42,224 nucleotides of DNA from a virus, in the IMG/VR virus record IMGVR_UViG_3300043446_000360, positions 1 through 42,224 of that record; one strand, written 5' to 3'. Of the stretch, positions 782 to 39,833 are shown in pieces. The translations under genes and the position numbers were made by a program. Within the stretch, counting starts at the first letter, position 1. Each line of letters begins with the position of its first letter. The notes under the pieces are model-generated. The model was not told where the DNA came from. It did no database searches and was given only the letters and a program-made list of their open reading frames with translations.

Positions 782-3700
782 TTAACAATCCCATGCTCTA
801 CGCGACCAGTAATTTGCACTGGTCTTCTTAGTTAGATTACCCTGACCGCTTGAGCGAGCACAGTATGATCTCTTGCGTCCAGGTTGATCCTTCTTAATGC
901 TTAGTTTCTTATCGCCAAAGTTTACCTTCTTTACATTACCAGTTGAAGGATCACGAACGTAAACTTTGGATTTCTTTACGTCGCCTTTCATAGGCTTATT
1001 CAGAGGAACATCACGTCCTTGATATATAGCTTCGTTCATCGCTTCTTCTTGCGCATCAAGTGCAGCTTGAACTTCAGGATGATGTTCGAAACCTGATTGA
1101 ACTTCAATACCATAGTCGCGCGCGAACGGAGCAAGCTCAAATCCCGCAGCAAACGATTCATTCAGTTCTACTGATTCGCGAATACCACCGAGTGCTTTGC
1201 GGATAGAAGCTAGATTCTTTTGACCTAGATTTTCTTTTGACTGATCTACTTCGGTGCGAGTCTTTTTAATCATTGAAGAAGTATAATCAACTTTCTCAGG
1301 AGCAAATTTGGCTACAGCGATTTCGCCGGCAACAGATCCTTGACCAGGAGTTACTGACGCATAGTTCTGACGAATCGCGTCTGTTCCTACGAAGCGATTA
1401 GCAGGATCTGCTCTGTTTCCAGATACTGGTTCTGATCCTGTATATGCTTCGCTAGCCGATTTCACTTTCTTTGTAAGATCTGCGCGAAGCTCTTTGTTCG
1501 TAAGATCACTATATGGTGTCTTACCAGTTGGGTGTGTATGCTGTTCGTTCTTAGGGTGCCAAGCATGGAAACTCTTGACACGCTTTACTCTTTTCGCTAG
1601 AGGAACTGCATCGTGAGTGGTCATGTTCTGTTCGAACACTTTCTTGTTGCTCTTACCAGAATCAATACCACGAACAGGAGTGCTGCTTAGTGGTGCTTCA
1701 TTTTCTGTTACGCCAACTTTCGAAGCTTGATTTGGCTTCATCCAATCGCGTGGGCGAACCATAGACTTAGGTGTTTTCTTTCCTGGGGGCAGTTTCTTTA
1801 CAGCTCCAGCAAAGTCTTGCTTTGCTTTTTCAAGATCAGCAGACTGAACAGCCTTAGACTTTTCCCATGGCTTCAGATAGTTCTTAGGTCTTGCTAGTTG
1901 TCCGAACATCTTGTTTGGATCATAGTCGCGACCCTTGACGTTTCCGCGAGCCATGCTACGAACACCACCTTCGTTCACATATTCTTCTTTCTTAACTGCT
2001 CTTTCCTGCTTTTCTTTAGCAACACCAGCGTCACGGAACTTCTTAACTCTGTTCCATGCCTTATCACCCTTACCCTTATCTCCAGGCATTAACCAGCCAG
2101 CTTTCTTTTGTGCGGCTTGCTTTGCTCTGTAGAGTAGTGCTGATGAGATTTCATTGACAGTTTCTTCGTTGGTTGTATGAGTTACAACACGTTCGCCTTT
2201 ATCATTATAGTGTCCGTGAGTTGTAACTCGCTTACCGTCTTTGTATGTCGTAGACTGGAATCCAACCTTACCGCCCTTATCCTTAGCAACTTTGCCAAGG
2301 ATTTTCTTAGCAGCTGCGTGACGCTCAGGATATACAGACTCATTCTTAGGAGTCTTACCGGCTTTCTTCATTGAGATAGCAATCGCAGCCTGTTGTGCTG
2401 GATTAGCAGCTTCTTTAGGAACGCAGTTAGGAACACTGCGTCCACCTTTCATTTTCATACCAACTTGCTTGTAGTCTTTCCAGCATGGCGCGTCTTCATT
2501 AGTCTGTGAAGCCTTTAGAGCTGCATCTGTAGGAGCACCTTTTGATCCAGGCTTACGCATACGCTCACCTGAACCAGCTTTGATACGTGCGCGCTTTGCG
2601 TGAATGTTATCCCAAAGTCCGCGCTTTTCTTGCATATCTGTTTCCTCGCTACGGCAGTTCCACTTTCTAAGTGCTTTATTGATTCTTGAGTTTGGATCGC
2701 GCGCAGTCTTAGCTGATGTCAATCTTTTCTTCATTCCGCCCATACGAGCACAGAATGAAGCACGACGACCAGCAGCTTTTCCACCTTTCTTTAGTTTAGA
2801 AGGCGGAGTTGTTACTGGTGCCTTGAGATTGCTACCGGTTGTTCTATTATAGTGATCGCGACCTTTTTGTGTTAGACCACCTGATGGGCTTTGATAACCT
2901 TTACCATCTTCTGCAAGATCGTGTTCAATTTCTTCTTTCGTAGTTTTCTTTTTGAATGAAGAAAACTTTACGACATTACCTTTTTTCTTTTGCACTTTAT
3001 CTTGCTTGTAGCTCATAGGAACGTTGGTATTATCCGGACTTGGTGCCAGTTTTCCACTCTTATCAATCACAGCAAATCTTGGAGCTCCACCTTTTACGTC
3101 AAAGTGTGTGCCTTTTTGTTTGTCATAGAATCGTGCAGTATTACCATGATATGCAACTGCGTCTGCACCTGATGCTTTTGGATGAACACCTTTCTTAGCA
3201 CCAAACCAATTGCGCAGCATATCGTTCGTATCAATTTCGTGTGGACCAACAATACCTTTCTTATGAAGAAGTCTTGTTGCTAACTTGGTCTTGATGACTT
3301 CGCCTTCTGTAAGATCTTTGTCTAGTTCAGCAGCTTTTCCGCCAGCAATAAATGAATTGACGCGAGAAAACGCTTCGTTGATATCTTCGTTCTGCTCATA
3401 ACCACGAGCAAACACTTCGAAGATAACACTTACATCAACGCCAGACTTTTCTGCTTTATTAAGAAGTGAAAGAGCTTCTTTCTGAACTACGTTGTAGCGA
3501 ACACGAGAATAAGTTGCTGGATCTTTAGTCGTCAGATCAATTAGCTTATCGAGTAGATCAGCCAGTTTCTCACGGAGCTTTGGGCTCTGTAGTGCGAATT
3601 TCTTTGACGAACGCAGCGCACGACGATAGTTCTGTAGCTCTTCCTGATCTACGAGACCAAGACGAAGTAGCAGATCAACTTTCTGCGAGAGCGGACGTGA

Positions 3701-5515
3701 TTTATTAGGATCTGTTGGACGATCTTCGTCTTTCGCTACTTCAGCGATACGACGAACTCCTGGCGGCTCATCGTTATCATAAGCAGAAGTTGTGCGCGAA
3801 CGCCCAACACCAAGATAAAACTCTTTGAACTGACGACCGCCGAGCGAAATCCCTTTCTTCTGATGTTTTACACCATGAGCAAGAACATCACGGAACGATG
3901 CGAGTGATTTACCAGCTTGGATTGTGAACTCATGCTTATCTGCTGGCAGACGCAGAGCGTCGAACTTAGCAAGCAACTTCTTAGCGTCAGCGATTGAGAT
4001 ATGCGCCTTATGTCTATCGGCAAACACAGTTTCATGCTCACCGCGTGAGTTTACTACCTTGCGCATTTGATAGATAATGTTCGTATCGCCAGCGTCACGA
4101 GCGTCTTTGTCGTCTGCAGACTTACGTCCTTCATGCACATATTCTTCGTCGTTGCGAGCATAGTGCATCAGTTTCTTATTAACATGCAAATGCGACTGTG
4201 TTGGATTTTGTGCCTGACGATCGTTAAGTGTAGGATCTGTATCTAGCGTATTGAGCTTGGTTGCATCAACGTTCAGTGGCGAGTCGTGAGCAGCGTCAGC
4301 CTTTGTCTTTTCCCAGTCAGCAACAGAAATGCCGCGACGCGCAGCCTGGATCTTATCTGTTGCCTTATCTCTAGCCGAGCCTTCCTTACCCTTTTCTGCT
4401 TCAACGATGTATGATTCTTTAACATCACGAGCTTTCGCTACGTTGACTTGTGCTTTCTTACGAACAGCTGGAATGAGTCTTTTTGATATCTTTTCCACAG
4501 CGCTCTTTAGTCCTTTCCCAAAACGATTGACAAGCGCATTATCTACGGCAATGCGCTGTGAACGTGATAGTGAGTTATAATCGAGATTCTTTTTGCCTGT
4601 TGCGCGCTTGCGAAGGATCATCAACGCAGCCTTACGTGCGCGCATACGGAGACGTTGTGAAGCTGGCATCTGTTTTGCTTTGATCTGACGCAAACGAGCG
4701 AGACGCTTAGACATCCCCTTCATACGCTGAGATAATTTCTGACGAGCCTGAGCAGAAAGAACTTTTCCTTCGTGAATTTCATTATTGTCGCTATCTTCAC
4801 CGTCGAGAATCAGATCTAACATAAGTGCATCTGAATCATCAAGATCAAGATCTACGCCGTCAATAGCTCTTTCGATTTCTGTGTCTGATGGAAGCGGAAC
4901 TTCATCTTCGTGTTCGTCGTTTTCTACGATAAACGAAATGAACTTTTCGTCAAGGGCGTAATCCATGACATCTTCTCCTAGTAGGGCTCGACGAACAGCG
5001 GTGAACATATTCTTAGCTTGTGCCGCCTTAAGGGTGTTGGGTGCGCCGCGTAGAAACTCAGCGACTTTATCATCTTTGGCAAGAGCGCGCATTTTGCTCG
5101 CTGACATACCAGACACGTCGTCGGCGTCTGGATCACGTTCGCCAGCGGACTTAACTTCGATTTGCTCAAAGTTGTATTCTTTACCGTTATACTTTGTGAG
5201 CAGCTTCGTAAACTCAGGAACACGATCCGAACCAGCGAACATCGTGACGTGAGTATATCCTTCTTTATCCAGCTGCTTAAGAACTTCGATAACTGTGCGA
5301 GCGTTCGACTTTTTTACGAGCGAACCAAAGGCTGCTCGCGCGAACGCGACTTTCTTATCGTATTGTAGGGGATCTTTTGCGCCGACTGAGTGCGATAGAT
5401 AAACGCGAGGAGCAGCACCAACTTGACGAGCATAAGCAACCAGCTTGTTTACAAGCAGCTGGTGTCCAGTCGTAGGGGGATTCATTCTCCCGAACGTGAA
5501 AACAACTTTCTTCAT
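782..5515 (-). CDS. Giant modular virion-type protein with N-terminal nucleotidyltransferase
   Basis: A 1577-residue protein. Residues 1-160 form a nucleotidyltransferase of the NMN/pantetheine-phosphate adenylyltransferase fold: FGRMNPPTTGH gives the (H/T)xGH motif at 15-18, GSDR lies near 95-98, and SASKMR at 138-143 matches the family's ISSTxxR motif. The rest is a chain of modules that recur in structural proteins of T4-like marine phages: a very basic helical segment (about 255-365), a helical module ending in AFSRVNSFIAGG, and three Cys-bounded cassettes (SFCARMGGMKK to KWNC; APCWKDYKQVGM to VPNCVPK; and SYCARSSG to the last residue, Cys). A TATAAATA late promoter at 5590-5597 points at it, and GAGGA precedes the ATG. 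It may be a virion protein, perhaps matured by the prohead protease (inference). No single function can be assigned. The N-terminal domain could act in NAD metabolism or be a packaged enzyme. Confidence 0.85.
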   Translation of the reverse strand: MKKVVFTFGRMNPPTTGHQLLVNKLVAYARQVGAAPRVYLSHSVGAKDPLQYDKKVAFARAAFGSLVKKSNARTVIEVLKQLDKEGYTHVTMFAGSDRVPEFTKLLTKYNGKEYNFEQIEVKSAGERDPDADDVSGMSASKMRALAKDDKVAEFLRGAPNTLKAAQAKNMFTAVRRALLGEDVMDYALDEKFISFIVENDEHEDEVPLPSDTEIERAIDGVDLDLDDSDALMLDLILDGEDSDNNEIHEGKVLSAQARQKLSQRMKGMSKRLARLRQIKAKQMPASQRLRMRARKAALMILRKRATGKKNLDYNSLSRSQRIAVDNALVNRFGKGLKSAVEKISKRLIPAVRKKAQVNVAKARDVKESYIVEAEKGKEGSARDKATDKIQAARRGISVADWEKTKADAAHDSPLNVDATKLNTLDTDPTLNDRQAQNPTQSHLHVNKKLMHYARNDEEYVHEGRKSADDKDARDAGDTNIIYQMRKVVNSRGEHETVFADRHKAHISIADAKKLLAKFDALRLPADKHEFTIQAGKSLASFRDVLAHGVKHQKKGISLGGRQFKEFYLGVGRSRTTSAYDNDEPPGVRRIAEVAKDEDRPTDPNKSRPLSQKVDLLLRLGLVDQEELQNYRRALRSSKKFALQSPKLREKLADLLDKLIDLTTKDPATYSRVRYNVVQKEALSLLNKAEKSGVDVSVIFEVFARGYEQNEDINEAFSRVNSFIAGGKAAELDKDLTEGEVIKTKLATRLLHKKGIVGPHEIDTNDMLRNWFGAKKGVHPKASGADAVAYHGNTARFYDKQKGTHFDVKGGAPRFAVIDKSGKLAPSPDNTNVPMSYKQDKVQKKKGNVVKFSSFKKKTTKEEIEHDLAEDGKGYQSPSGGLTQKGRDHYNRTTGSNLKAPVTTPPSKLKKGGKAAGRRASFCARMGGMKKRLTSAKTARDPNSRINKALRKWNCRSEETDMQEKRGLWDNIHAKRARIKAGSGERMRKPGSKGAPTDAALKASQTNEDAPCWKDYKQVGMKMKGGRSVPNCVPKEAANPAQQAAIAISMKKAGKTPKNESVYPERHAAAKKILGKVAKDKGGKVGFQSTTYKDGKRVTTHGHYNDKGERVVTHTTNEETVNEISSALLYRAKQAAQKKAGWLMPGDKGKGDKAWNRVKKFRDAGVAKEKQERAVKKEEYVNEGGVRSMARGNVKGRDYDPNKMFGQLARPKNYLKPWEKSKAVQSADLEKAKQDFAGAVKKLPPGKKTPKSMVRPRDWMKPNQASKVGVTENEAPLSSTPVRGIDSGKSNKKVFEQNMTTHDAVPLAKRVKRVKSFHAWHPKNEQHTHPTGKTPYSDLTNKELRADLTKKVKSASEAYTGSEPVSGNRADPANRFVGTDAIRQNYASVTPGQGSVAGEIAVAKFAPEKVDYTSSMIKKTRTEVDQSKENLGQKNLASIRKALGGIRESVELNESFAAGFELAPFARDYGIEVQSGFEHHPEVQAALDAQEEAMNEAIYQGRDVPLNKPMKGDVKKSKVYVRDPSTGNVKKVNFGDKKLSIKKDQPGRKRSYCARSSGQGNLTKKTSANYWSRRAWDC

Positions 5516-5589: not shown

Positions 5590-5597
5590 TATTTATA
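5590..5597 (-). promoter_or_regulatory. Late promoter TATAAATA (T4 gp55 type)
   Basis: An exact match to the T4 late -10 element TATAAATA on the minus strand, 75 bases upstream of the 1577-residue structural gene. The late sigma gp55 is encoded at 35695-36231. The predicted start site is near 5584. Confidence 0.7.
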
Positions 5598-5790: not shown

Positions 5791-7023
5791 TTACTTCTCC
5801 CATCCCTTGATAATGTCTGGACTGAAATTAGCTTGGCTGAATCCCAGACGATCCACCAGCTTTACGGCTCCACCTGTCAAATGATCTACAGCCACGTATC
5901 CCTCAGGTGATGTCACTTTGAGACCCTGACGAGTGCGCAGAAACGTATTGATTGCAGCAGCTGAATTCATCTTAGCAATAATCATCATCTTAGCATCAAC
6001 AACTAGATTCATAAAGTCAAAGATAGATTTCAGCTGGATTAGTGGTGTGCGAATGATAGGCCCAAACGCCTGTATCTTTTTTGCTTTTACAGAGTTCTTA
6101 CCAGCAACAGTCTTTTTCTTATCTTCTTCTTTCTGATAGTAATCATTCATGTAGTGAATAAACCCAGCAACGTGATGCACTGTGTTACCAATCTTTTCAC
6201 CCGCACGAACCTTACTGTTATTGTATGTCTTGATGCGCATCAGCAAGTCTGCGTCCTGATGAAACGCATTCACAGCTTCTGCAGGTAGTTTTTGTAAGAT
6301 TTTTCCAGCTTCTGATAGAATCTTGTTGAATGCAGCTGTTTCTTTTGCAGTAAACGTAGCAGATCCGCTGACGTCTTTGTAGTTCGCATCATCCATCCAG
6401 ATAGTGCCAACTTGATTCAGCTTCTCAACGATACCTTTACCGAACGATGCTTTCATAGATTCAAAGCTATCGCCTTCGTATGTTGTATGCCAAACAACAC
6501 CAACGCTAGCTCTTGCGATAATTTTACCAAGAGCAGATCCGATAGGAACAGCATACACGATTGTGTTAGGTTGGAACGTATAATACTTTTCCCCGTCGAT
6601 GACTTCTGTGCGAACGTCACCTTTAGTGAACATCAGATCTCCCTGATAGACACCAGATTTGATACCTAGTTTCTTAAACTCGCGAAGAGCCACACTAAAC
6701 TTGTCAGCCAGTTCGCCGCTAAGATCAGCGTCGATATCTGCTTGTGTCTTGTAGATTTTAGGATTCTTGTTGAAGATACCTTTCTTAGCAACAAAAAACT
6801 TATCATCACGGGGATCTATGCCAGCAAAGATAGCAGGAGCTCCATCCCACTTAACTGTTGCTGCAACTTTCTTAGTCGTATGACCACCAAGCATCTCGCG
6901 CATCTGGATCAGAAAGTTAAAGATCTGCTTCGCACCAGTAACGCCATCGTTGAGGATTAGATCCTCGATGTGCTCCATGTGTAGATTCTTTTCTTCAGCG
7001 ATGAACGTTGATAACTTTTTCAT
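5791..7023 (-). CDS. Ligase-like nucleotidyltransferase with capsid-targeting N-terminus
   Basis: A 410-residue protein that I read as a member of the DNA/RNA ligase-like nucleotidyltransferase superfamily. VKWDG at 57-61 fits motif I (KxDG, with Lys58 as the candidate AMP-accepting lysine), GDLM at 128-131 and EGYV at 374-377 fit internal motifs, and AVKLVDR about 386-392 fits motif V. Similar proteins of unknown role are common in T4-like cyanophages (a DUF-type family). The N-terminus, MKKLSTFIAE followed by E, resembles the T4 internal-protein capsid-targeting peptide (MKTYQEFIAE) that is cut after Glu by the prohead protease, so it may be packaged and injected (inference). It overlaps the nuclease-like gene upstream by 4 bases (ATGA), so the two are probably made together. 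The substrate, DNA or RNA, cannot be told. Confidence 0.65.
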   Translation of the reverse strand: MKKLSTFIAEEKNLHMEHIEDLILNDGVTGAKQIFNFLIQMREMLGGHTTKKVAATVKWDGAPAIFAGIDPRDDKFFVAKKGIFNKNPKIYKTQADIDADLSGELADKFSVALREFKKLGIKSGVYQGDLMFTKGDVRTEVIDGEKYYTFQPNTIVYAVPIGSALGKIIARASVGVVWHTTYEGDSFESMKASFGKGIVEKLNQVGTIWMDDANYKDVSGSATFTAKETAAFNKILSEAGKILQKLPAEAVNAFHQDADLLMRIKTYNNSKVRAGEKIGNTVHHVAGFIHYMNDYYQKEEDKKKTVAGKNSVKAKKIQAFGPIIRTPLIQLKSIFDFMNLVVDAKMMIIAKMNSAAAINTFLRTRQGLKVTSPEGYVAVDHLTGGAVKLVDRLGFSQANFSPDIIKGWEK

Positions 7024-7697
7024 TTAATAGCTTTCTTGATTGCCTTAACATCTTTCTCGATGTCGATAGCTGAAGCAGTCACAGTTCCCTTAATTGATAG
7101 GGCGATGAGGAATCCATATGAAGTCTTTGAGCGATACTTCACGCGCGAGCGAGCTTGGATCTTAGCTGAAAACTTAGAAGTTCCGAGTCCAAGAACGTCT
7201 TTCTGGAAATGATACAGACCAGCTTTACCAATCTGAATGTATGGCGTCTTACGATCTTTGGCGTAGTGTTCGCCGACAGATGCTGTAGGAAACTCGGCGT
7301 ATAGATTACCCAGACGCTTTAGATCTACGTCGTAGTTCTTACCGTGCGGAGCAGGCCAGTTCTTGTTGACGAAGTCGATGAGTGACTTATATGTTTTGTT
7401 GTCAGCAGTTACAGGAACCGTTTCCATCTGCTTTGCTGTATTGGGATACTTGCGTTTTGTGTTTTCTGACAGCTGCCATTTCTTGTTGATATATTTCAGC
7501 TCTGCCTGACCAAAGAACGCACCTTTGTCTTTTTTGATCTCAATGCTAATTTCTTTACCTTTAGCATCGTAGATATAAGCATCAGGGTCGTCAGCTGATG
7601 ATCCAGCCGTCGTAGCATTTGGATCCATCAGTCCGTTTTCTTTTAGAATATTTGCGATAGTAGCTTCGTATTCGAAACCGCCTGTTGCTTTTGCCAT
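7020..7697 (-). CDS. PD-(D/E)XK nuclease-like protein
   Basis: A 225-residue protein. Its N-terminal third carries a textbook nuclease core: Glu11 in a first helix, Pro38-Asp39 in DPDAYIY, then EIKK with Glu53 and Lys55 on the next strand, i.e. PD-x13-ExK. This is the arrangement of restriction-type and Holliday-junction-type metal-dependent nucleases. The remainder is rich in Lys and aromatic residues and matches nothing I recognise. It starts at an ATG preceded by AGGAGACTCC, and an AATAAATA late-type element lies 23 bases upstream, so it is probably late. The stop overlaps the start of the ligase-like gene by 4 bases. A coupled nuclease and ligase suggests cut-and-seal processing of nucleic acid during packaging, injection or repair (inference). 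Confidence 0.6.
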   Translation of the reverse strand: MAKATGGFEYEATIANILKENGLMDPNATTAGSSADDPDAYIYDAKGKEISIEIKKDKGAFFGQAELKYINKKWQLSENTKRKYPNTAKQMETVPVTADNKTYKSLIDFVNKNWPAPHGKNYDVDLKRLGNLYAEFPTASVGEHYAKDRKTPYIQIGKAGLYHFQKDVLGLGTSKFSAKIQARSRVKYRSKTSYGFLIALSIKGTVTASAIDIEKDVKAIKKAIK

Positions 7698-7719: not shown

Positions 7720-7727
7720 TATTTATT
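7720..7727 (-). promoter_or_regulatory. Late-type promoter AATAAATA
   Basis: AATAAATA on the minus strand is one base from the T4 late consensus TATAAATA. It lies just downstream of the terminator at 7733-7761. The predicted start near 7714 leaves a 17-base leader that contains the AGGAG ribosome binding site of the nuclease-like gene. Confidence 0.55.
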
Positions 7728-7732
7728 AAACG

Positions 7733-7761
7733 AAAAGGGGAGCGGCACCACACCGCTCCCC
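7733..7761 (-). terminator. Intrinsic terminator
   Basis: On the minus strand GGGGAGCGG, a 7-base loop, then CCGCTCCCC (perfect 9-base stem) followed by TTTTCGTTT. It lies in the gap upstream of the peptidase lipoprotein's end and separates that gene's downstream flank from the nuclease-like gene. Confidence 0.85.
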
Positions 7762-7793: not shown

Positions 7794-8633
7794 TCAGCCA
7801 ATCTTGCGATATCCTAGCACATAGTTTGCAGGATAATAAGCGACATTGACTTCCTTGCGCTGGTTACCACCAAGCACTAGGATATAACGGACTCCTTCGA
7901 CGACCTCTTCGCCAACATAGAATCCAACGTGACCAGCGAACTGGTTACGACCACGAGAGAACACAACGATATCGCCGTATTCGGGATGACGAGTCACGCT
8001 TCCGTATTGCAGGAAGCTACGAGCTTGAAGTGAATTCGTACCTTCAAATCCACTTTGCTTTAGAATAGTGTTAACGAATGCTGCGCACCAAGCGACCGAT
8101 AGCGGATCTACGTTTAGTGCTTGTTTCAGTTCTGTTCTGTTTCGCACAGCATGTTTGCCTTCCCAGTTCTTTGCTATCGCTACAGGCTTTTGCATTCCGT
8201 TGTTGTTGAACAAACTAAATGAAGACTGAAACGAAGAACTAGAATTAGACTTTCTAAAGAACGCAGCACCAGAATCGTCTTCGCTAGGCGAAGCTGTTAC
8301 GATATCATTTCTACTTGTAGCTATTGTTTGTGGCTTTGCTGCGAGTTTGGTATGATCAGGTACAGTTACGTTGGGATCCAACGGACTTTTCTGTACCATA
8401 GCCACTGCGGGCTTCCTGAACTGACAATAGTAAGAATATCTTTCTTTACCAGGAAGTAGACTTTGATTACAGAGTATCTCAGCTTGAGATAGATTCACTC
8501 TACGTTTCGGCTCTTTGAACTTAGCCGATGAGTTAGTTGTTGACGCAACAGATTTGTTATTCTCTACAACCGATGTAGATGCAGCGCATCCACTTAAAAT
8601 TAGAGCTGTTGCAATTATGGTTAGATATTTCAT
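7794..8633 (-). CDS. Lipoprotein with NlpC/P60- or CHAP-like peptidase domain (TIGR02594 type)
   Basis: A 279-residue protein. Residues 1-16 are a lipoprotein signal peptide ending in the lipobox LSGC (Cys16), so it should be lipid-anchored in the bacterial envelope. A long Ser/Thr/Asn-rich linker (about 20-145) follows. The C-terminal domain is a papain-like cysteine peptidase: WCAAF with Cys183, GHVGF with His235 and GGNQ with Asn257 form the likely triad. Such domains cut peptidoglycan peptides. The gene lies left of an RlpA-like lipoprotein gene and just before a strong terminator. Two lipid-anchored wall enzymes made by a phage suggest a role in lysis, spanin-like disruption or entry exclusion (inference). 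AGGAG precedes the ATG. Confidence 0.75.
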   Translation of the reverse strand: MKYLTIIATALILSGCAASTSVVENNKSVASTTNSSAKFKEPKRRVNLSQAEILCNQSLLPGKERYSYYCQFRKPAVAMVQKSPLDPNVTVPDHTKLAAKPQTIATSRNDIVTASPSEDDSGAAFFRKSNSSSSFQSSFSLFNNNGMQKPVAIAKNWEGKHAVRNRTELKQALNVDPLSVAWCAAFVNTILKQSGFEGTNSLQARSFLQYGSVTRHPEYGDIVVFSRGRNQFAGHVGFYVGEEVVEGVRYILVLGGNQRKEVNVAYYPANYVLGYRKIG

Positions 8634-8685: not shown

Positions 8686-9051
8686 TTATCTAGACGTTAG
8701 TTCTTCGACAAACAATCGTGTTCGCCCTTTGTTTATAAATCCCAACTGTTGGGCACCTCCTCTTGAAATGTCTAGATCCACGCCTTTCGTAAATGGACCA
8801 CGATCATTAACTCGGACAACTATGGACCTGTTGTTGTCTGGGTTAGATACTCGCAAGACAGTTCCGAATGGAAGAGTCTTATGAGCAGCCGTTAGTCCGT
8901 TTGGGTTGAACTTTTCACCGCTGGCAGTTTTAGTGCCGTGCATATACCAAGTCGCATTTACATGATAAGATCTGTTTGCGGTTTCATTCGACAAAGTGGT
9001 ACACCCACTAAGCATGCTTAGTAGGAATACCGTCAGGGCTATTTTGCGCAT
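8686..9051 (-). CDS. RlpA-like double-psi beta-barrel lipoprotein
   Basis: A 121-residue protein with a lipoprotein signal (LSGC, Cys17) followed by a complete RlpA-type double-psi beta-barrel: ATWYMHGTKTASGE, LTAAHKTLPFGT, then VRVNDRGPF and DLDIS. Bacterial RlpA proteins are septal lytic transglycosylases acting on naked glycan strands. The conserved catalytic pattern (Glu in ASGE, His in TAAHKTLP, Asp in NDRGPF) is intact. The SPOR domain of long RlpA proteins is absent. The ATG at 9049-9051 has no Shine-Dalgarno sequence and lies 5 bases from a TAAATA late-type element, so the message may be leaderless. It probably works with the peptidase lipoprotein downstream in degrading the wall. Confidence 0.85.
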   Translation of the reverse strand: MRKIALTVFLLSMLSGCTTLSNETANRSYHVNATWYMHGTKTASGEKFNPNGLTAAHKTLPFGTVLRVSNPDNNRSIVVRVNDRGPFTKGVDLDISRGGAQQLGFINKGRTRLFVEELTSR

Positions 9052-21281: not shown

Positions 21282-21977
21282 TCATTCTCCATCATATAGG
21301 GTGTTCGTCGTCAAGCGATTATACTTGAAGCGAACTGTCACAGGCACTTTCTTGTTCCCAGCGAAGATCGAAGGTTTTGACCAGTCAATCTTAACATTAG
21401 GAAAGTTATCAGCCCAATCACGAAAGATACCCTCATAGCGTTCTGGACTGATATCTACATAATCTTGTGAATCGTTGGATGTCGCGATACCTTTCAGCTT
21501 GATGTAGGCTTTACCTGTTCGAGCAAGCTGGAGATAGAAGTCAACATCCTCAAACAAATCAATCCGATCATATCGGGCTGACTTTACTCTACTCGTATAG
21601 TGTAGCACGAACTTGCTCAAACCGCTAGTCCATTCTTCACGTCCATTGGAAAATGCTCTTGGATGATCGCTGATCATAGCCAAGTTCTGATATCGCGTAA
21701 ACATTTTGCCTGCTTTGCGATAAAAGGCTTGGAAGTCCTCGAATGTGGCAGATTGGCTAGTGCATACGCCATTTTCATAGCGGGTGAACTTGCAGTCGTC
21801 ATCGACCATAACAAACATTGGCTCGTTGTTCTTGATAGCCATATCAACGATCAGCTGTCGTTTCTGAGAGATTGGGAGCTGATCATCGATTACCCTGACG
21901 CTATCCCTGAGCTGCTCAGGAAGAGAGTCGTATGTTGTTTTTACGACGCCACGTGTCGGGATGTAGATAGGTATCAT
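21282..21977 (-). CDS. Glycosyltransferase-like protein (TET/JBP-associated type)
   Basis: A 231-residue protein with a GT-A-like start: PIYIPTRG at 3-10, SQKRQLIVDMA at 37-47 and MVDDDCKF with the metal-binding DDD at 59-61. ERYEGIF and DLFEDVDFYLQL later resemble the acceptor side. This pattern matches glycosyltransferase-like proteins that phages encode next to base-modifying enzymes, where they add sugars to hydroxymethylated bases. No TET/JBP or hydroxymethylase gene is visible in this window, so the acceptor is unknown. It overlaps the gp44 stop by 4 bases and is translated with it. Confidence 0.6.
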   Translation of the reverse strand: MIPIYIPTRGVVKTTYDSLPEQLRDSVRVIDDQLPISQKRQLIVDMAIKNNEPMFVMVDDDCKFTRYENGVCTSQSATFEDFQAFYRKAGKMFTRYQNLAMISDHPRAFSNGREEWTSGLSKFVLHYTSRVKSARYDRIDLFEDVDFYLQLARTGKAYIKLKGIATSNDSQDYVDISPERYEGIFRDWADNFPNVKIDWSKPSIFAGNKKVPVTVRFKYNRLTTNTLYDGE

Positions 21978-30587: not shown

Positions 30588-31271
30588 TTACGGAGCTTTT
30601 AACGCAATGAAGCCGGTGAAGGCGTGATTTTGCCAGAAGGTATCTACCGCTTCGAAGCCAGCGTGTTTGCACATATTGACGAGTTCCTGACGGGTGCTGG
30701 GCTTTGTCATGTGACGGAGTTGCTTTTCTTTGTCCATAATGTCGTCGGTCGTAAACGTGCGACGCTTGAAGTCGTAATAGGTAAACGTGCGAATCTCGTG
30801 GATGCGAACATTATCAGGCATTGTCTTTTCTGCAAACACGAAAGCTCCGCCTGGATTCAATCCATCATAGACAGAGTTGATAACTCGTTTGCGTTGCTGA
30901 TGCGTCATGAACTGTAGCGTGAAGATACTGGTAATGTAAGAACAGTTCACGAAGTGATACTGATCAACGTCACCACGGAAGTATGTCAGATTGTGGTAAT
31001 TCCTTTCGTCTTCTTCATACGTCTTATAGAAGTCTGGTTCAATTTCTACGCCGTCATAAAATGCTTCAGGCGCGAACGTATTCTGAGCGATCATGCTCTT
31101 GAGCATCTTACCCGTCGAGCAACCAATATCGACTACGGTAGTTCCGTTCTCAACAAAGTATTGTGAGATATCGACGATGTCTTGCCACAGATCGTTGTAT
31201 CCACGGATCGATGTGTCGATATGAGTATCAAAGCCTTCTTCGCGTGTGGCAAATGTGAACTTACCTGTCAT
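30588..31271 (-). CDS. CmoA-like SAM-dependent enzyme
   Basis: A 227-residue class I SAM-binding enzyme close to CmoA, the carboxy-SAM synthase of bacteria. Shared features are SIRGY at 21-25 (E. coli SVPGY), DIGCSTG at 48-54, GDV at 100-102, FTLQFM, YDGLNPGGAF at 135-144, AEK, YDFKR and the C-terminal KHAGF. In E. coli CmoA, Arg199 binds the carboxylate of carboxy-SAM. The aligned stretch here is Lys181-Glu182-Lys183, so the Arg itself is not conserved and the product may be carboxy-SAM or a methylated target. It overlaps the C5-cytosine methyltransferase stop by 4 bases and ends the operon. CmoB, the tRNA partner, is not in the window. Confidence 0.75.
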   Translation of the reverse strand: MTGKFTFATREEGFDTHIDTSIRGYNDLWQDIVDISQYFVENGTTVVDIGCSTGKMLKSMIAQNTFAPEAFYDGVEIEPDFYKTYEEDERNYHNLTYFRGDVDQYHFVNCSYITSIFTLQFMTHQQRKRVINSVYDGLNPGGAFVFAEKTMPDNVRIHEIRTFTYYDFKRRTFTTDDIMDKEKQLRHMTKPSTRQELVNMCKHAGFEAVDTFWQNHAFTGFIALKAP

Positions 31272-32407
31272 TGCAATTCCTTGTATGGCTTGAGGATATT
31301 TTCGTAGATAGAAGTGGCAAGAGCTGACATCATCTTAGGAGCTACCATTCGTCCGATACGTTCTGCCTGCTGATCGAATGTGCCAGTCAGCTCGTAGTCA
31401 TCAGGTAGACTCATGATACGCTTCATTTCTTTAATTGTCAACTTCCTATTTGCAGCATAGTGCATAACACCAGAGGCACCACGTTGCTGTCCCATCTGCG
31501 TGAGTGTAGGCGATGGTTTATTAGGAGCTGGACGTTTCATGTTGAAACAAGATGTCTTGCCGTTCAGTGGTCCTGGTTTCAATACCTTAACAGGATTGAA
31601 TGGCATAGTTTCAACGAACTTCTTTTGGAAACTTGTTTCACAGAAGTCCAGGAGCATTTGAACTTCTGCAGGATCATTGTCGATCCCTTCGATTGCGCTG
31701 GCGATTGATACACCATCGCTTGTTGTAGGCATTGGATAAACTCGACGAGCGAGTTCATACTCCTCCAGCCCCAGAGCCGTGAACACATCATTCCTAATCC
31801 CCACAAAAAATGTTCTCATGCGGCTCTGGGGCACCCCAAACTTCGACGCATCCATCACTTGATATACCATCTTATATCCTGGCGCGATGCGTTCGAAGCC
31901 TGTTACGAAATCTCTGAGTTTCTCAATCGCGGCGCGAGACGTGATTCCCTCGACGTTTTCCGCTACGATTACCTTAGGTTGGATATCTTCTGCAATTCGT
32001 ATATATTCAAGGAACAGATCTTCAATGTTCTTTACAACTTTACCATCAGAATACTTTTTCTCGCGATTCCATCCCTTCTTACCTTTACCAGAAGAAGAAA
32101 ACGCAGAACACGGCGGCGATCCGTCGAGGATATCAAGCTCACCTTTCTTCAGATTACCAATCTTAAGCAGATCGTCACCAGTGATGTTCTTGATATCTCC
32201 CAGGATTACTTTCGTGTCGGGAAAGTTGCACGAGTAGGTAGCGACAGCTTCCTCAACGAACTCGTTGATCGCAACAACTTTCCCGCCTGCTAGCCTATAT
32301 CCTGTTGAAGATCCTCCTCCTCCCGCGAACGTCGAGACCACCGTAAACAATTCGCGAGCAGATGACTTTCGCACATCTTCAATAGTATATGGCTGATAGT
32401 TACTCAT
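31268..32407 (-). CDS. C5-cytosine DNA methyltransferase with altered motif X
   Basis: A 379-residue cytosine-C5 DNA methyltransferase. Motif I is FAGGGGSSTG at 27-36, motif IV GSPPCS with catalytic Cys100, motif VI ENV at 150-152, motif VIII QSRMR at 194-198, and motif IX spans RKLTIKEM to SLPDDY. The target-recognition stretch between VIII and IX is short, so a short site is expected. In motif X the usual QIGNxVxP reads RIGRMVAP, so the conserved Asn is Arg353. From memory, changing that Asn to Lys or Arg lets M.MpeI use carboxy-SAM. It overlaps the deformylase stop and the CmoA-like start by 4 bases each. It could also simply protect phage DNA by methylation. Confidence 0.93.
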   Translation of the reverse strand: MSNYQPYTIEDVRKSSARELFTVVSTFAGGGGSSTGYRLAGGKVVAINEFVEEAVATYSCNFPDTKVILGDIKNITGDDLLKIGNLKKGELDILDGSPPCSAFSSSGKGKKGWNREKKYSDGKVVKNIEDLFLEYIRIAEDIQPKVIVAENVEGITSRAAIEKLRDFVTGFERIAPGYKMVYQVMDASKFGVPQSRMRTFFVGIRNDVFTALGLEEYELARRVYPMPTTSDGVSIASAIEGIDNDPAEVQMLLDFCETSFQKKFVETMPFNPVKVLKPGPLNGKTSCFNMKRPAPNKPSPTLTQMGQQRGASGVMHYAANRKLTIKEMKRIMSLPDDYELTGTFDQQAERIGRMVAPKMMSALATSIYENILKPYKELQ

Positions 32408-38610: not shown

Positions 38611-39159
38611 TCATTCTTCGAGCTGATACTTACGATAACGGAACGTAACAGTGGCTTCCATATACTCAATCGTAGTATTGGTAGAAACGAACGCCAACTC
38701 CGTAAGTCCAATAGGAAAGCAATCATAGAAAAAGATATTCTTGTTCACGTTCTTGGCTGCGGTTAGAACAGAAAGCACGGCGTCTGACATATACGTTGTA
38801 TAGTAACCAACAGAACGAGTACCAGCCATTTGATAGTTGTTAATGTCTTTCGACAGAGCACGAGTTTGACCAAGATTGTCTGGATGTCCAAGCGCCTCAA
38901 TCCACTTCTGAATCTCGAAATAGTTCTTTAGATCTTCATCGACTTTGAATGTGATGACTAATGGCTCGTATGTGATACGATCGCCAGGGCGTGGAAGAGA
39001 AGCAAATGGAGTTGGGGTTTCTGCTACGCCAATTGATACTGCAGGAATAGCAACGCCCTGACAGAAATAGTTTACGCCTGGAAGACGCTTGATTGAGAAT
39101 CGAAAGCCGTTTTGACCAAGAAAGTTAATGTTAGATGGCTGTGAGTCGATTGCTGACAT
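38611..39159 (-). CDS. Tail tube-like protein (T4 gp19 family)
   Basis: A 182-residue protein with the layout of T4 gp19-type tail tube proteins: FLGQNGFRFSIKRLPGVNYF, VAIPAVSIGVAETPTPFASL, then GDRITYEPLVITFKVDED, EIQKWIEALGHP and a C-terminal strand pair ending ATVTFRYRKYQLEE. Length is close to gp19 (163). It lies next to capsid genes rather than beside a sheath gene, so it may be a second tube/baseplate-associated paralog. The function is inferred from fold-level similarity. Confidence 0.65.
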   Translation of the reverse strand: MSAIDSQPSNINFLGQNGFRFSIKRLPGVNYFCQGVAIPAVSIGVAETPTPFASLPRPGDRITYEPLVITFKVDEDLKNYFEIQKWIEALGHPDNLGQTRALSKDINNYQMAGTRSVGYYTTYMSDAVLSVLTAAKNVNKNIFFYDCFPIGLTELAFVSTNTTIEYMEATVTFRYRKYQLEE

Positions 39160-39740
39160 TAGAAGTTCTTTCTTTTGTTAAGCGAAGCGACAAGTTTCAT
39201 CTTGTAGATTTCTTTTCCAGCCTTGTCAGTTTTCAAGAATCCTGCGATAGCTTCTTTTTCGCTTACATGTGTTTCTTCTGGATCACGCGGATCTAGATTT
39301 ATAGCTTTACCACGATACCATCCGTAGATAGATACACCACGTTCTTTAGCAAGATTTTGCCAAATCTTTTGTCCACCTGGAGAATGACTTTTTCCGACAA
39401 GAGCTACTGCGTGACCAGACTCTAGAATCTTGCGATATACAACATGTGCTTTAGGACCACGTCCTGTAGAATCTGCTGTGTCGATGGTATAGACTTTTTT
39501 AGGATTGAGCATACCTGTAACAGTAAGTTGCACGATTCCAGTATCTCTATCTATGGCATAGTAGAGATCAAATGCTTCAATCTTGCGGTGATAAAGATCT
39601 GTGCTAGAATCAATTCTGATGAGTTTCTTACCAGCTTTTTTAAGATCTAGTTTGTGACCAGTTTCATAAGAAAACTTCTGCCCTCTCCTAATTGATGTTA
39701 GGAGTGGAGCTTCGCTTAAGAACTGTGTGAATGATTTCAT
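39159..39740 (-). CDS. Internal/virion protein with capsid-targeting N-terminus, GNAT-like
   Basis: A 193-residue protein. The first residues MKSFTQFLSE followed by Ala closely resemble the capsid-targeting peptide of T4 internal proteins (MKTYQEFIAE followed by Ala), which the prohead protease removes after Glu. The middle (GRGPKAHVVYRKILESGHAV, then SHSPGGQKIWQNLAKERGV and YGWYRGKAINL) resembles an acetyltransferase (GNAT-type) fold. The start is ATG 39738-39740, with a TATAAATA element at 39746-39753 and no Shine-Dalgarno sequence, so the message may be leaderless. It may be an enzyme injected with the DNA (inference). Confidence 0.65.
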   Translation of the reverse strand: MKSFTQFLSEAPLLTSIRRGQKFSYETGHKLDLKKAGKKLIRIDSSTDLYHRKIEAFDLYYAIDRDTGIVQLTVTGMLNPKKVYTIDTADSTGRGPKAHVVYRKILESGHAVALVGKSHSPGGQKIWQNLAKERGVSIYGWYRGKAINLDPRDPEETHVSEKEAIAGFLKTDKAGKEIYKMKLVASLNKRKNF

Positions 39741-39745
39741 ATGAC

Positions 39746-39753
39746 TATTTATA
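39746..39753 (-). promoter_or_regulatory. Late promoter TATAAATA abutting a start codon
   Basis: An exact T4 late -10 element on the minus strand between the gp23 terminator and the internal-protein gene. The ATG lies 6 bases after it, which is where a T4 late transcript would start. Confidence 0.65.
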
Positions 39754-39754
39754 T

Positions 39755-39781
39755 GAAAAAAGGGGGACCCGAAGATCCCCC
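39755..39781 (-). terminator. UUCG-tetraloop terminator after gp23
   Basis: Minus strand GGGGGATC, TTCG, GGTCCCCC followed by a run of Ts (8-base stem with one G-T pair and the extra-stable C-UUCG-G loop), 53 bases after the gp23 stop. Confidence 0.9.
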
Positions 39782-39833
39782 AGTTTGCGGTTTGAACCCG
39801 TCTTATTATCCCCTCCCACATGGAGGGTTGAAC

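Follow-up and report, generated by a model that had tools for sequence, protein, structure and literature searches.

A ligase-like DUF6267 protein with a capsid-targeting-like leader and an exchangeable, often nuclease-like neighbour in a T4-like phage

Introduction

Do a nuclease-like and a ligase-like protein encoded by overlapping phage genes act as one cut-and-seal unit, and at what point of the phage cycle would they work? The question is raised by the virus record IMGVR_UViG_3300043446_000360, which was analysed over its whole length of 42,224 nucleotides (nt) and is called the window here. The presence of T4-type gp23 and scaffold genes identifies it as a fragment of a T4-like phage. 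Two of its genes, termed NUC and LIG, encode a PD-(D/E)XK nuclease-like protein and a DUF6267 ligase-like nucleotidyltransferase, and a third, CYT, encodes a protein with a cytidylyltransferase/NMNAT-like N-terminus. A first-pass annotation had read NUC and LIG as cut and seal activities made in fixed ratio and used during packaging or after injection. The analysis shifts the emphasis to LIG, which may be a repair ligase that is packaged in the head and injected, next to an exchangeable and often restriction-enzyme-like neighbour. We give this reading an even chance.

The overlapping NUC and LIG genes

The features on which the argument depends are the following.

7020..7697, minus strand: NUC, PD-(D/E)XK nuclease-like protein of 225 amino acids (aa); open reading frame (ORF) with ATG start
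5791..7023, minus strand: LIG, DUF6267 ligase-like nucleotidyltransferase of 410 aa; ORF with ATG start
7020..7023, minus strand: ATGA, the NUC stop overlapping the LIG start, from the ORF coordinates
7581..7583, minus strand: D39 of the NUC PD motif (P38-D39), invariant in 47 sequences
7533..7541, minus strand: E53-I-K55 of NUC, with E53 and K55 invariant in 47 sequences
6994..7023, minus strand: LIG residues 1-10, MKKLSTFIAE, a T4-type capsid-targeting-like leader (profile of 47 distinct homologues, T4 control, disordered in the model)
6841..6852, minus strand: LIG ligase motif I, K58-W-D-G, with K58 and D60 invariant in 52 sequences
6637..6645, minus strand: Q127-G128-D129 of LIG, putatively motif III-like, with Q127 and G128 invariant and D129 at least 90% conserved
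5893..5904, minus strand: LIG motif IV, E374-G-Y-V, with E374 and G375 invariant in 52 sequences
5848..5862, minus strand: LIG motif V-like K388-L-V-D-R, with K388 and R392 at least 90% conserved

The literal PD...ExK of the first protein, the KxDG, EGYV and motif V-like segments of the second and the ATGA overlap are all borne out in the sequence as the first-pass annotation described them, and the overlap supports its view that the two genes are translationally coupled. Given their conservation across aligned relatives, the catalytic motifs are more than chance.

Conservation and predicted fold of LIG

LIG matches Pfam DUF6267 (PF19782) with an E-value (E) of 7.5e-103. It also matches phrog_455, the second half of which matches CYT. 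By tblastn, DUF6267 is found in 463 of 50,697 phage records, mostly of cyanophages. Thirteen residues are invariant in 52 aligned DUF6267 proteins, which extend down to about 22% identity with LIG: H15, H18, K58, D60, K81, Q127, G128, P152, N153, Y157, H179, E374, and G375. K388 is conserved in at least 90% of them. The invariant H15-x-x-H18 stands immediately after the leader.

The AlphaFold2 model of LIG has a mean predicted local distance difference test score (pLDDT) of 87.4. Residues 1-13 fall below 50, as a disordered leader, and residues 226-355 form a long helical insertion. For this model, the 50 rows listed by a structural aligner, working within the first 1000 chains of Foldseek's own list, are all nucleic-acid ligases (Z 6.6 to 9.2, where a Z below 8 may reflect merely a common arrangement). 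The best match among the rows listed is a Naegleria RNA ligase (6vt3; Z 9.2, root-mean-square deviation (rmsd) 3.6, 189 residues aligned), which we take to be of the Rnl5 type. Others include T. brucei REL1 (1xdn, Z 9.0), T4 Rnl2 (2hvq, Z 8.1), and human DNA ligase 1 (Z about 7). The predicted viral structure that matches best is a 591-aa S-PM2 protein named for a cytidyltransferase domain (405 columns, 32% identity), which points to a joint DUF6267-CYT protein. A search of PDB sequences with the DUF6267 profile gave no matches.

Together, the model and the 50 listed rows bear out the ligase nucleotidyltransferase fold claimed at the outset. LIG combines the features of the ligase/capping nucleotidyltransferase superfamily, namely KxDG in motif I, EG in motif IV, the motif V lysine, and a predicted nucleotidyltransferase fold. 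The best explanation is that LIG is a covalent nucleotidyltransferase of the ATP-dependent-ligase type, with a predicted fold nearest to nick-sealing RNA ligases.

A capsid-targeting-like leader on LIG

The first ten residues of LIG, MKKLSTFIAE, recall the MKTYQEFIAE with which T4 IPII and IPIII start. In T4 IPIII, the first 10 residues are reported to suffice for packing, residues 4 and 7 being the main determinants of targeting and residues 8 and 10 those of processing; the propeptide of IPII is identical (PMC9026906). Fused EcoRI endonuclease, Staphylococcus nuclease, and other proteins have been packaged and delivered by the T4 leader, and varied cargo on this leader has already been proposed for T4-like phages (PMC9026906).

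The leader was profiled in 82 DUF6267 proteins: that of the window, that of L001, which comes from the same contig as L010, and the best 80 out of at least 600 stretches with a match. A Met lies exactly 14 residues ahead of the first conserved His in 68 of the 82, giving 47 distinct segments. Position 4 is F or L (one S), position 7 is F or Y (two H, one I), position 8 is L or I (one V), and position 10 is E in 47/47, with positions 2, 3, 5, 6, and 9 variable. The constrained positions are the same four that are reported for T4 IPIII, as expected of cargo bearing a capsid targeting sequence. The 14 proteins left out of the profile comprise 10 whose N-terminus is leader-like but of other length or spacing, two with disturbed starts (L038 and L073), and two with no anchor (L050 and L074).

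A motif for counting leaders was written after inspection of the DUF6267 N-termini, and the position profile is the less biased test. In T4, the motif is found in 2 of 214 called genes, ipII and ipIII, and it misses ipI, the start of which is less regular. Across 160 viral-contig loci, without DUF6267, it stands at 131 of the 2696 Mets found up to residue 41 versus 13 of 7991 beyond residue 60. The Fisher test on the leader counts takes no account of how closely the sequences are related. The leader genes other than DUF6267 found around DUF6267 or NUC form 26 clusters, including HAD-like and P-loop kinase-like proteins, and at least one is present in 62 of 80 DUF6267 loci. In 150 kb of phage C48C1, the motif occurs in 6 of the 176 genes called. 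Four of these, one being DUF6267, fall in the interval 61.8-68.4 kb, and the two matches outside it look accidental. C48C1 has an annotated head maturation protease; the window ends at a gp22-like scaffold gene.

Four changes of leader state are required on a tree built from 59 DUF6267 cores. The window's LIG belongs to a set of 44 rows, 42 of which have the leader by rule, the other two being differently spaced. The rule scored L056, L073, L128, and L139 as having none despite a leader-like start with other spacing. Among NUC proteins, the leader is found on 2 of 56 distinct complete sequences. The window holds a second leader gene:

39159..39740, minus strand: second leader gene, starting MKSFTQFLSEA, flanked by gp23 and by the gene at 38611-39159 (ORF 39159-39821, start 39740)

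This gene is preceded by a hairpin and by TATAAATA at 39746-39753, and its product has no Pfam match above the cut-off.

The link to the virion and to injection that the first-pass annotation had raised is supported through this head-targeting leader, which that annotation did not mention. The leader turns a vague idea of packaging or injection into a specific and testable one.

An exchangeable gene upstream of DUF6267

A gene of at least 150 aa lies upstream of DUF6267 in 71 of the 82 loci, and these genes fall into 20 sequence clusters. Fifteen members were classed by eye as HAD-like from their DxD start, where Pfam offers no more than DUF2608 at 0.0011. Two members belong to the cluster of L050, itself a P-loop kinase or zeta-toxin-like protein (AAA_33 at 1.2e-13). 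For one family, the match is to a model of a type II restriction enzyme (E 4e-14). In hhalign comparisons of the 20 clusters with NUC, matches were confined to its own cluster (5), cluster 6 (5e-25, a distant relative), and part of cluster 10 (4e-5, the NUC core). The remaining clusters gave no hhalign match, and homology to NUC was rejected for them; all they show is a pattern resembling D..SxK, noticed by eye or among invariant columns. PADLOC, run on 22 upstream proteins, gave one restriction enzyme match and one weak PycC match at 0.0093.

The same picture emerges from the NUC side, where the best 80 of 104 relatives were taken. In these 80 viral-contig loci, DUF6267 starts at most 300 nt downstream in 24, lies further along in 13, and is absent in 36; the remaining 7 end too early. 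The NUC family also occurs without a neighbouring DUF6267, either after the gp41 helicase (several loci) or ahead of the cytidylyltransferase. In S-8S53 and P-TIM40, NUC is followed by DUF6267 and then by the cytidylyltransferase. P-SSM2 has NUC, a small gene, and the cytidylyltransferase, with its DUF6267 match elsewhere in the genome. In S-RSM4, S-CAM4, and P-HM2, other large genes fill the slot and are followed by the cytidylyltransferase. The 'tRNA ligase' near the nuclease gene of P-SSM2 (L086:8993-9796) was considered as a substitute ligase and rejected, as it matches class II tRNA synthetases (PF00152).

Adjacency of NUC and DUF6267 is thus recurrent, as had been anticipated, with 24 of 80 NUC loci showing it. 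The further claim of a fixed two-gene cut-and-seal unit is not supported and was rejected in view of the 20 upstream clusters and of the NUC loci without DUF6267. Since the slot fillers vary across loci, the stable part is the ligase with CYT, and the upstream gene is exchangeable. NUC is best explained as one filler of a rapidly changing slot, the product of which is often a DNA-cutting or end-processing enzyme. The predicted fold of the ligase is nearest to RNA ligases, whereas that of NUC is the fold of DNA-cutting enzymes.

Conservation and predicted fold of NUC

NUC matches phrog_26930 (E 1.9e-26), a family of unknown function, and has no Pfam match above the cut-off and no NCBIfam match. 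The invariant residues of 47 aligned NUC proteins include E11, D39, E53, K55, and Q64. In the AlphaFold2 model (mean pLDDT 92.0), the structural aligner places HhaI first (6uke; Z 11.1, rmsd 3.8, 178 residues aligned, 13% identity), followed by Holliday junction resolvases (Hjc), with Z up to 5.8 over 110 residues, and by HinP1I (Z 5.4). The model holds the nuclease core that had been claimed for this protein, and the invariant D39, E53, and K55 lie in a predicted restriction-endonuclease fold, as is typical of PD-(D/E)XK enzymes. The probable activity of NUC is that of a nuclease acting on DNA.

A profile search of PDB sequences gave weak Holliday junction resolvase matches (E 0.033 and 0.36) over E11, D39, and E53-x-K55. 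This sequence likeness is only a hint, because the matches also include a porin chain, at E 0.025. No methyltransferase was seen near NUC among the ORFs at 3.5-10.5 kb (some scanned, the remainder by eye). Self-avoidance of GCGC was looked for in the window and rejected: the site is not depleted (149 versus 153.2 expected), which is compatible with protection or with another specificity.

Some NUC relatives form part of longer proteins (595-750 aa) whose N-terminal portion is unrelated (L098, L099, and L100, from about 4720 on the plus strand). Plasmids gave no NUC-family match. A cellular home for the family was rejected: the sole genome-contig match, L191, is filed under Nonlabens xiamenensis and carries P-TIM40-like cyanophage genes (RecA-like, gp41-like, NUC, DUF6267, and CYT). 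One peptide pattern was scanned here, which makes the absence a weak one.

CYT and published virion proteomes

The usual downstream neighbour of DUF6267 in these loci is CYT, placed in the window as follows.

782..5515, minus strand: CYT, 1577 aa, cytidylyltransferase/NMNAT-like N-terminus (phrog_3041, E 2.5e-59) with a long tail including DUF6321 (E 5.2e-20)

Two segments of the tail, RGLWDNIHAKR and CWKxYxQxG, occur in other loci as separate small leader-bearing proteins (for example L011:5533-6288 and L025:1854-2354). CYT may be a fusion or a polyprotein of internal head proteins.

Published mass spectrometry places leader-bearing cytidylyltransferases of three cyanophages in virions. ORF154 of S-CREM2, with the N-terminus MKNFSSFLTEAD, is in the published virion list (PMC10665884). 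So is S-SZBM1_140 (PMC9146016), which starts MRFRQFIIEA and has one residue less ahead of the first aromatic residue. ORF91 of S-SCSM1 is reported in virions (PMC9602691), and we take it to be the cytidylyltransferase frame that starts MKSFLQFLKEAA in the S-SCSM1 genome. The leaderless DUF6267 frames of S-CREM2 (58914-59762) and S-SZBM1 (_141) are absent from these virion lists as published, which is a weak fit to the packaging idea. For S-CREM1, the main text of PMC9964418 does not tabulate the 14 virion proteins.

Expression signals and genome context

Three putative signals accompany the genes.

7737..7761, minus strand: intrinsic-terminator-like hairpin before NUC, 11 pairs then TTTTC (strong)
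7720..7726, minus strand: late-promoter-like ATAAATA, 23 nt before NUC (by position)
5590..5597, minus strand: TATAAATA, 75 nt before CYT (two exact occurrences in the window against 0.91 expected)

ATAAATA is not enriched in the window (5 sites versus 5.55 expected), and since this count equals chance, the late-promoter reading is drawn from the positions of the sites. Just before NUC lie genes for a CHAP-domain protein (7794-8633, minus) and a lytic-transglycosylase-like DPBB protein (8686-9051, minus), both with lipoprotein-like starts. Elsewhere, the window encodes a C5 cytosine methyltransferase (31268-32407, minus; PF00145, 4.7e-52) and a TET-associated glycosyltransferase (21282-21977, minus), which suggest that the phage modifies its own cytosines. 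A search of the window for a TET dioxygenase gave no match, but the control of that search gave none either. The window strongly avoids GGCC (10 versus 46 expected) and GTAC (27 versus 112).

Proposed role of LIG and alternative explanations

The reading of LIG as a packaged and injected repair ligase applies to the clade of this phage and can be set out in steps. Late in infection, NUC and LIG would be co-translated. The leader, residues 1-10, would act as a T4-type capsid targeting sequence and draw LIG into the prohead core, where a gp21-type protease would clip it after E10, leaving LIG in the head. LIG would then enter the next host together with the phage DNA and could seal nucleic-acid breaks inflicted by early host defence, ahead of any phage gene expression. 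RNA ends, such as those of tRNA, would be the likelier substrate because the predicted fold is closest to RNA ligases; DNA nicks are possible. Since a few NUC relatives bear the leader, the slot product may sometimes be packaged too.

Several observations weigh against this proposal. We found no virion proteome for any leader-bearing DUF6267 protein. The virion list of PMC9146016 includes S-SZBM1_139, which has no such leader, so the leader is not needed for virion detection. CYT could also be carried over, a caution given by the authors of PMC10665884 and PMC9602691. Nine cyanophage-type DUF6267 rows form a leaderless group on the tree, and packaging is therefore not general for the family. 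In the window itself, CYT and NUC are without a leader. As to the folds, Foldseek alone found no significant match in the PDB for the NUC model or for the LIG model (best E 0.15 for LIG, with ligases among those listed). T4 Rnl2 is unsupported as a direct sequence relative of LIG (hhalign against the single Rnl2 sequence, E 0.25). LIG also has no OB-fold or other C-terminal domain, unlike full-length ligases, and ends 22 residues after K388.

The alternative that survives best, which we regard as unlikely, is a late DNA-processing pair. NUC would nick or resolve branched phage DNA in late replication and packaging, LIG would seal it in the infected cell, and the leader would be incidental or a mark of head assembly. 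The resemblance of NUC to Hjc-type resolvases in both model and sequence would suit this role, as would its place after the gp41 helicase in several loci and the overlap with LIG behind a late-promoter-like site. The role accords poorly with a LIG fold nearer to RNA than to DNA ligases, with the unrelated proteins that fill the slot in most loci, and with a leader that is maintained on LIG and present on 26 other clusters.

Distinctly improbable is a virion-delivered restriction system, in which NUC-like slot enzymes would attack unmodified host or rival DNA early, LIG would carry out repair, and phage DNA would be shielded by the C5 methyltransferase at 31268-32407 or by further modification. 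HhaI as the best structural match of NUC, the second slot family with its restriction enzyme model, the methyltransferase and glycosyltransferase of the window, and the two leader-bearing NUC proteins all speak for it. The window's NUC, however, has neither a leader nor an adjoining methyltransferase, and the undepleted GCGC count fits protection and another specificity alike.

To the same low degree, LIG might be a non-catalytic internal head protein that keeps its ligase fold only for nucleic-acid binding, as the long helical insertion and the lack of a domain after motif V would allow. Loss of activity would be expected to loosen K58, D60, E374, G375, and K388, yet the first four are invariant and the last is at least 90% conserved over the 52 sequences. 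Least probable of all is a leader that is a chance or unrelated N-terminal helix, since the constraint pattern, read without the motif that was written after viewing the DUF6267 N-termini, falls on the four T4 IPIII positions, the T4 control gave just two genes, both for known internal proteins, and three leader-bearing CYT proteins are reported in virions.

The packaged-ligase reading can be extended, at the price of becoming doubtful, to the proposal that many marine and freshwater T4-like phages use the leader to pack an exchangeable kit of nucleic-acid enzymes. The kit would comprise the DUF6267 ligase, restriction-like nucleases, HAD-like phosphatases, P-loop kinases, and an NMNAT-like enzyme, which once injected would cut foreign or host DNA and would heal and seal the ends of phage nucleic acid before phage genes are read. 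T4 itself injects a handful of internal proteins, few of which have a defined role, such as IPI against a restriction enzyme and Alt on RNA polymerase (PMC9026906). If the leader acts as it does in T4, sequence would suffice to read off which proteins a common aquatic phage group injects, and DUF6267, a family of unknown function matched in 463 of 50,697 phage records, would provide a candidate for an injected repair ligase. The clades that have the leader and those that lack it offer a natural comparison for tests of what phages deliver in the first minutes.

The combination of a DUF6267 ligase fold, a leader, and an exchangeable slot appears to be new. We found no mention of DUF6267, PF19782, or phrog_455 in the literature searched. 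Papers retrieved for capsid targeting with cyanophage, marine phage, ligase, or injection, or for virion with NMNAT, describe nothing of the kind in their titles or abstract openings. Packaged NAD-related enzymes and RNA repair are covered in PMC9503650, the available parts of which do not mention DUF6267.

Comparison with known systems

The Naegleria RNA ligase, T4 Rnl2, and T. brucei REL1 share with LIG the nucleotidyltransferase core, KxDG, EG, and the motif V lysine, at Z 9.2, 8.1, and 9.0, respectively. LIG differs from them in H15-x-x-H18, the helical insertion at 226-355, the leader, the missing C-terminal domain, and the lack of a sequence match to T4 Rnl2. Unlike DNA ligases, it has no OB-fold domain after the nucleotidyltransferase domain.

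HhaI and HinP1I resemble NUC in fold over most of its length (178 aligned residues for HhaI) and in the D..ExK core, whereas NUC shows 13% identity to HhaI and stands without an adjacent methyltransferase. Type II restriction-modification systems differ likewise in that no cognate methyltransferase gene was seen beside NUC here, the C5 methyltransferase lying at 31268-32407. The N-terminal E, D, and ExK of archaeal Hjc align with those of NUC, which is about 100 residues longer and matches HhaI better.

Jumbo-phage Rnl2-HNH fusions also join a nuclease to an RNA ligase and are predicted to combine DNA attack with RNA repair (PMC7824862). In the present system, the nuclease fold is another one, the genes are separate, the partner is exchangeable, and a head-targeting leader is present. 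The NMNAT/cytidylyltransferase of cyanophage virions directly adjoins DUF6267, is sometimes part of the same polypeptide, and is reported in virions. The papers on it discuss NAD or cell-wall roles, and their available parts do not mention the leader or DUF6267.

The closest parallel for the leader is T4 IPII and IPIII, with a ten-residue N-terminal leader, constraint on the same four positions, an E where clipping occurs, and cargo that changes fast in related phages (PMC9026906). The T4 internal proteins are small and basic, and none is called a ligase in the parts of PMC9026906 available to us, whereas the cargo described here includes a conserved enzyme-like domain.

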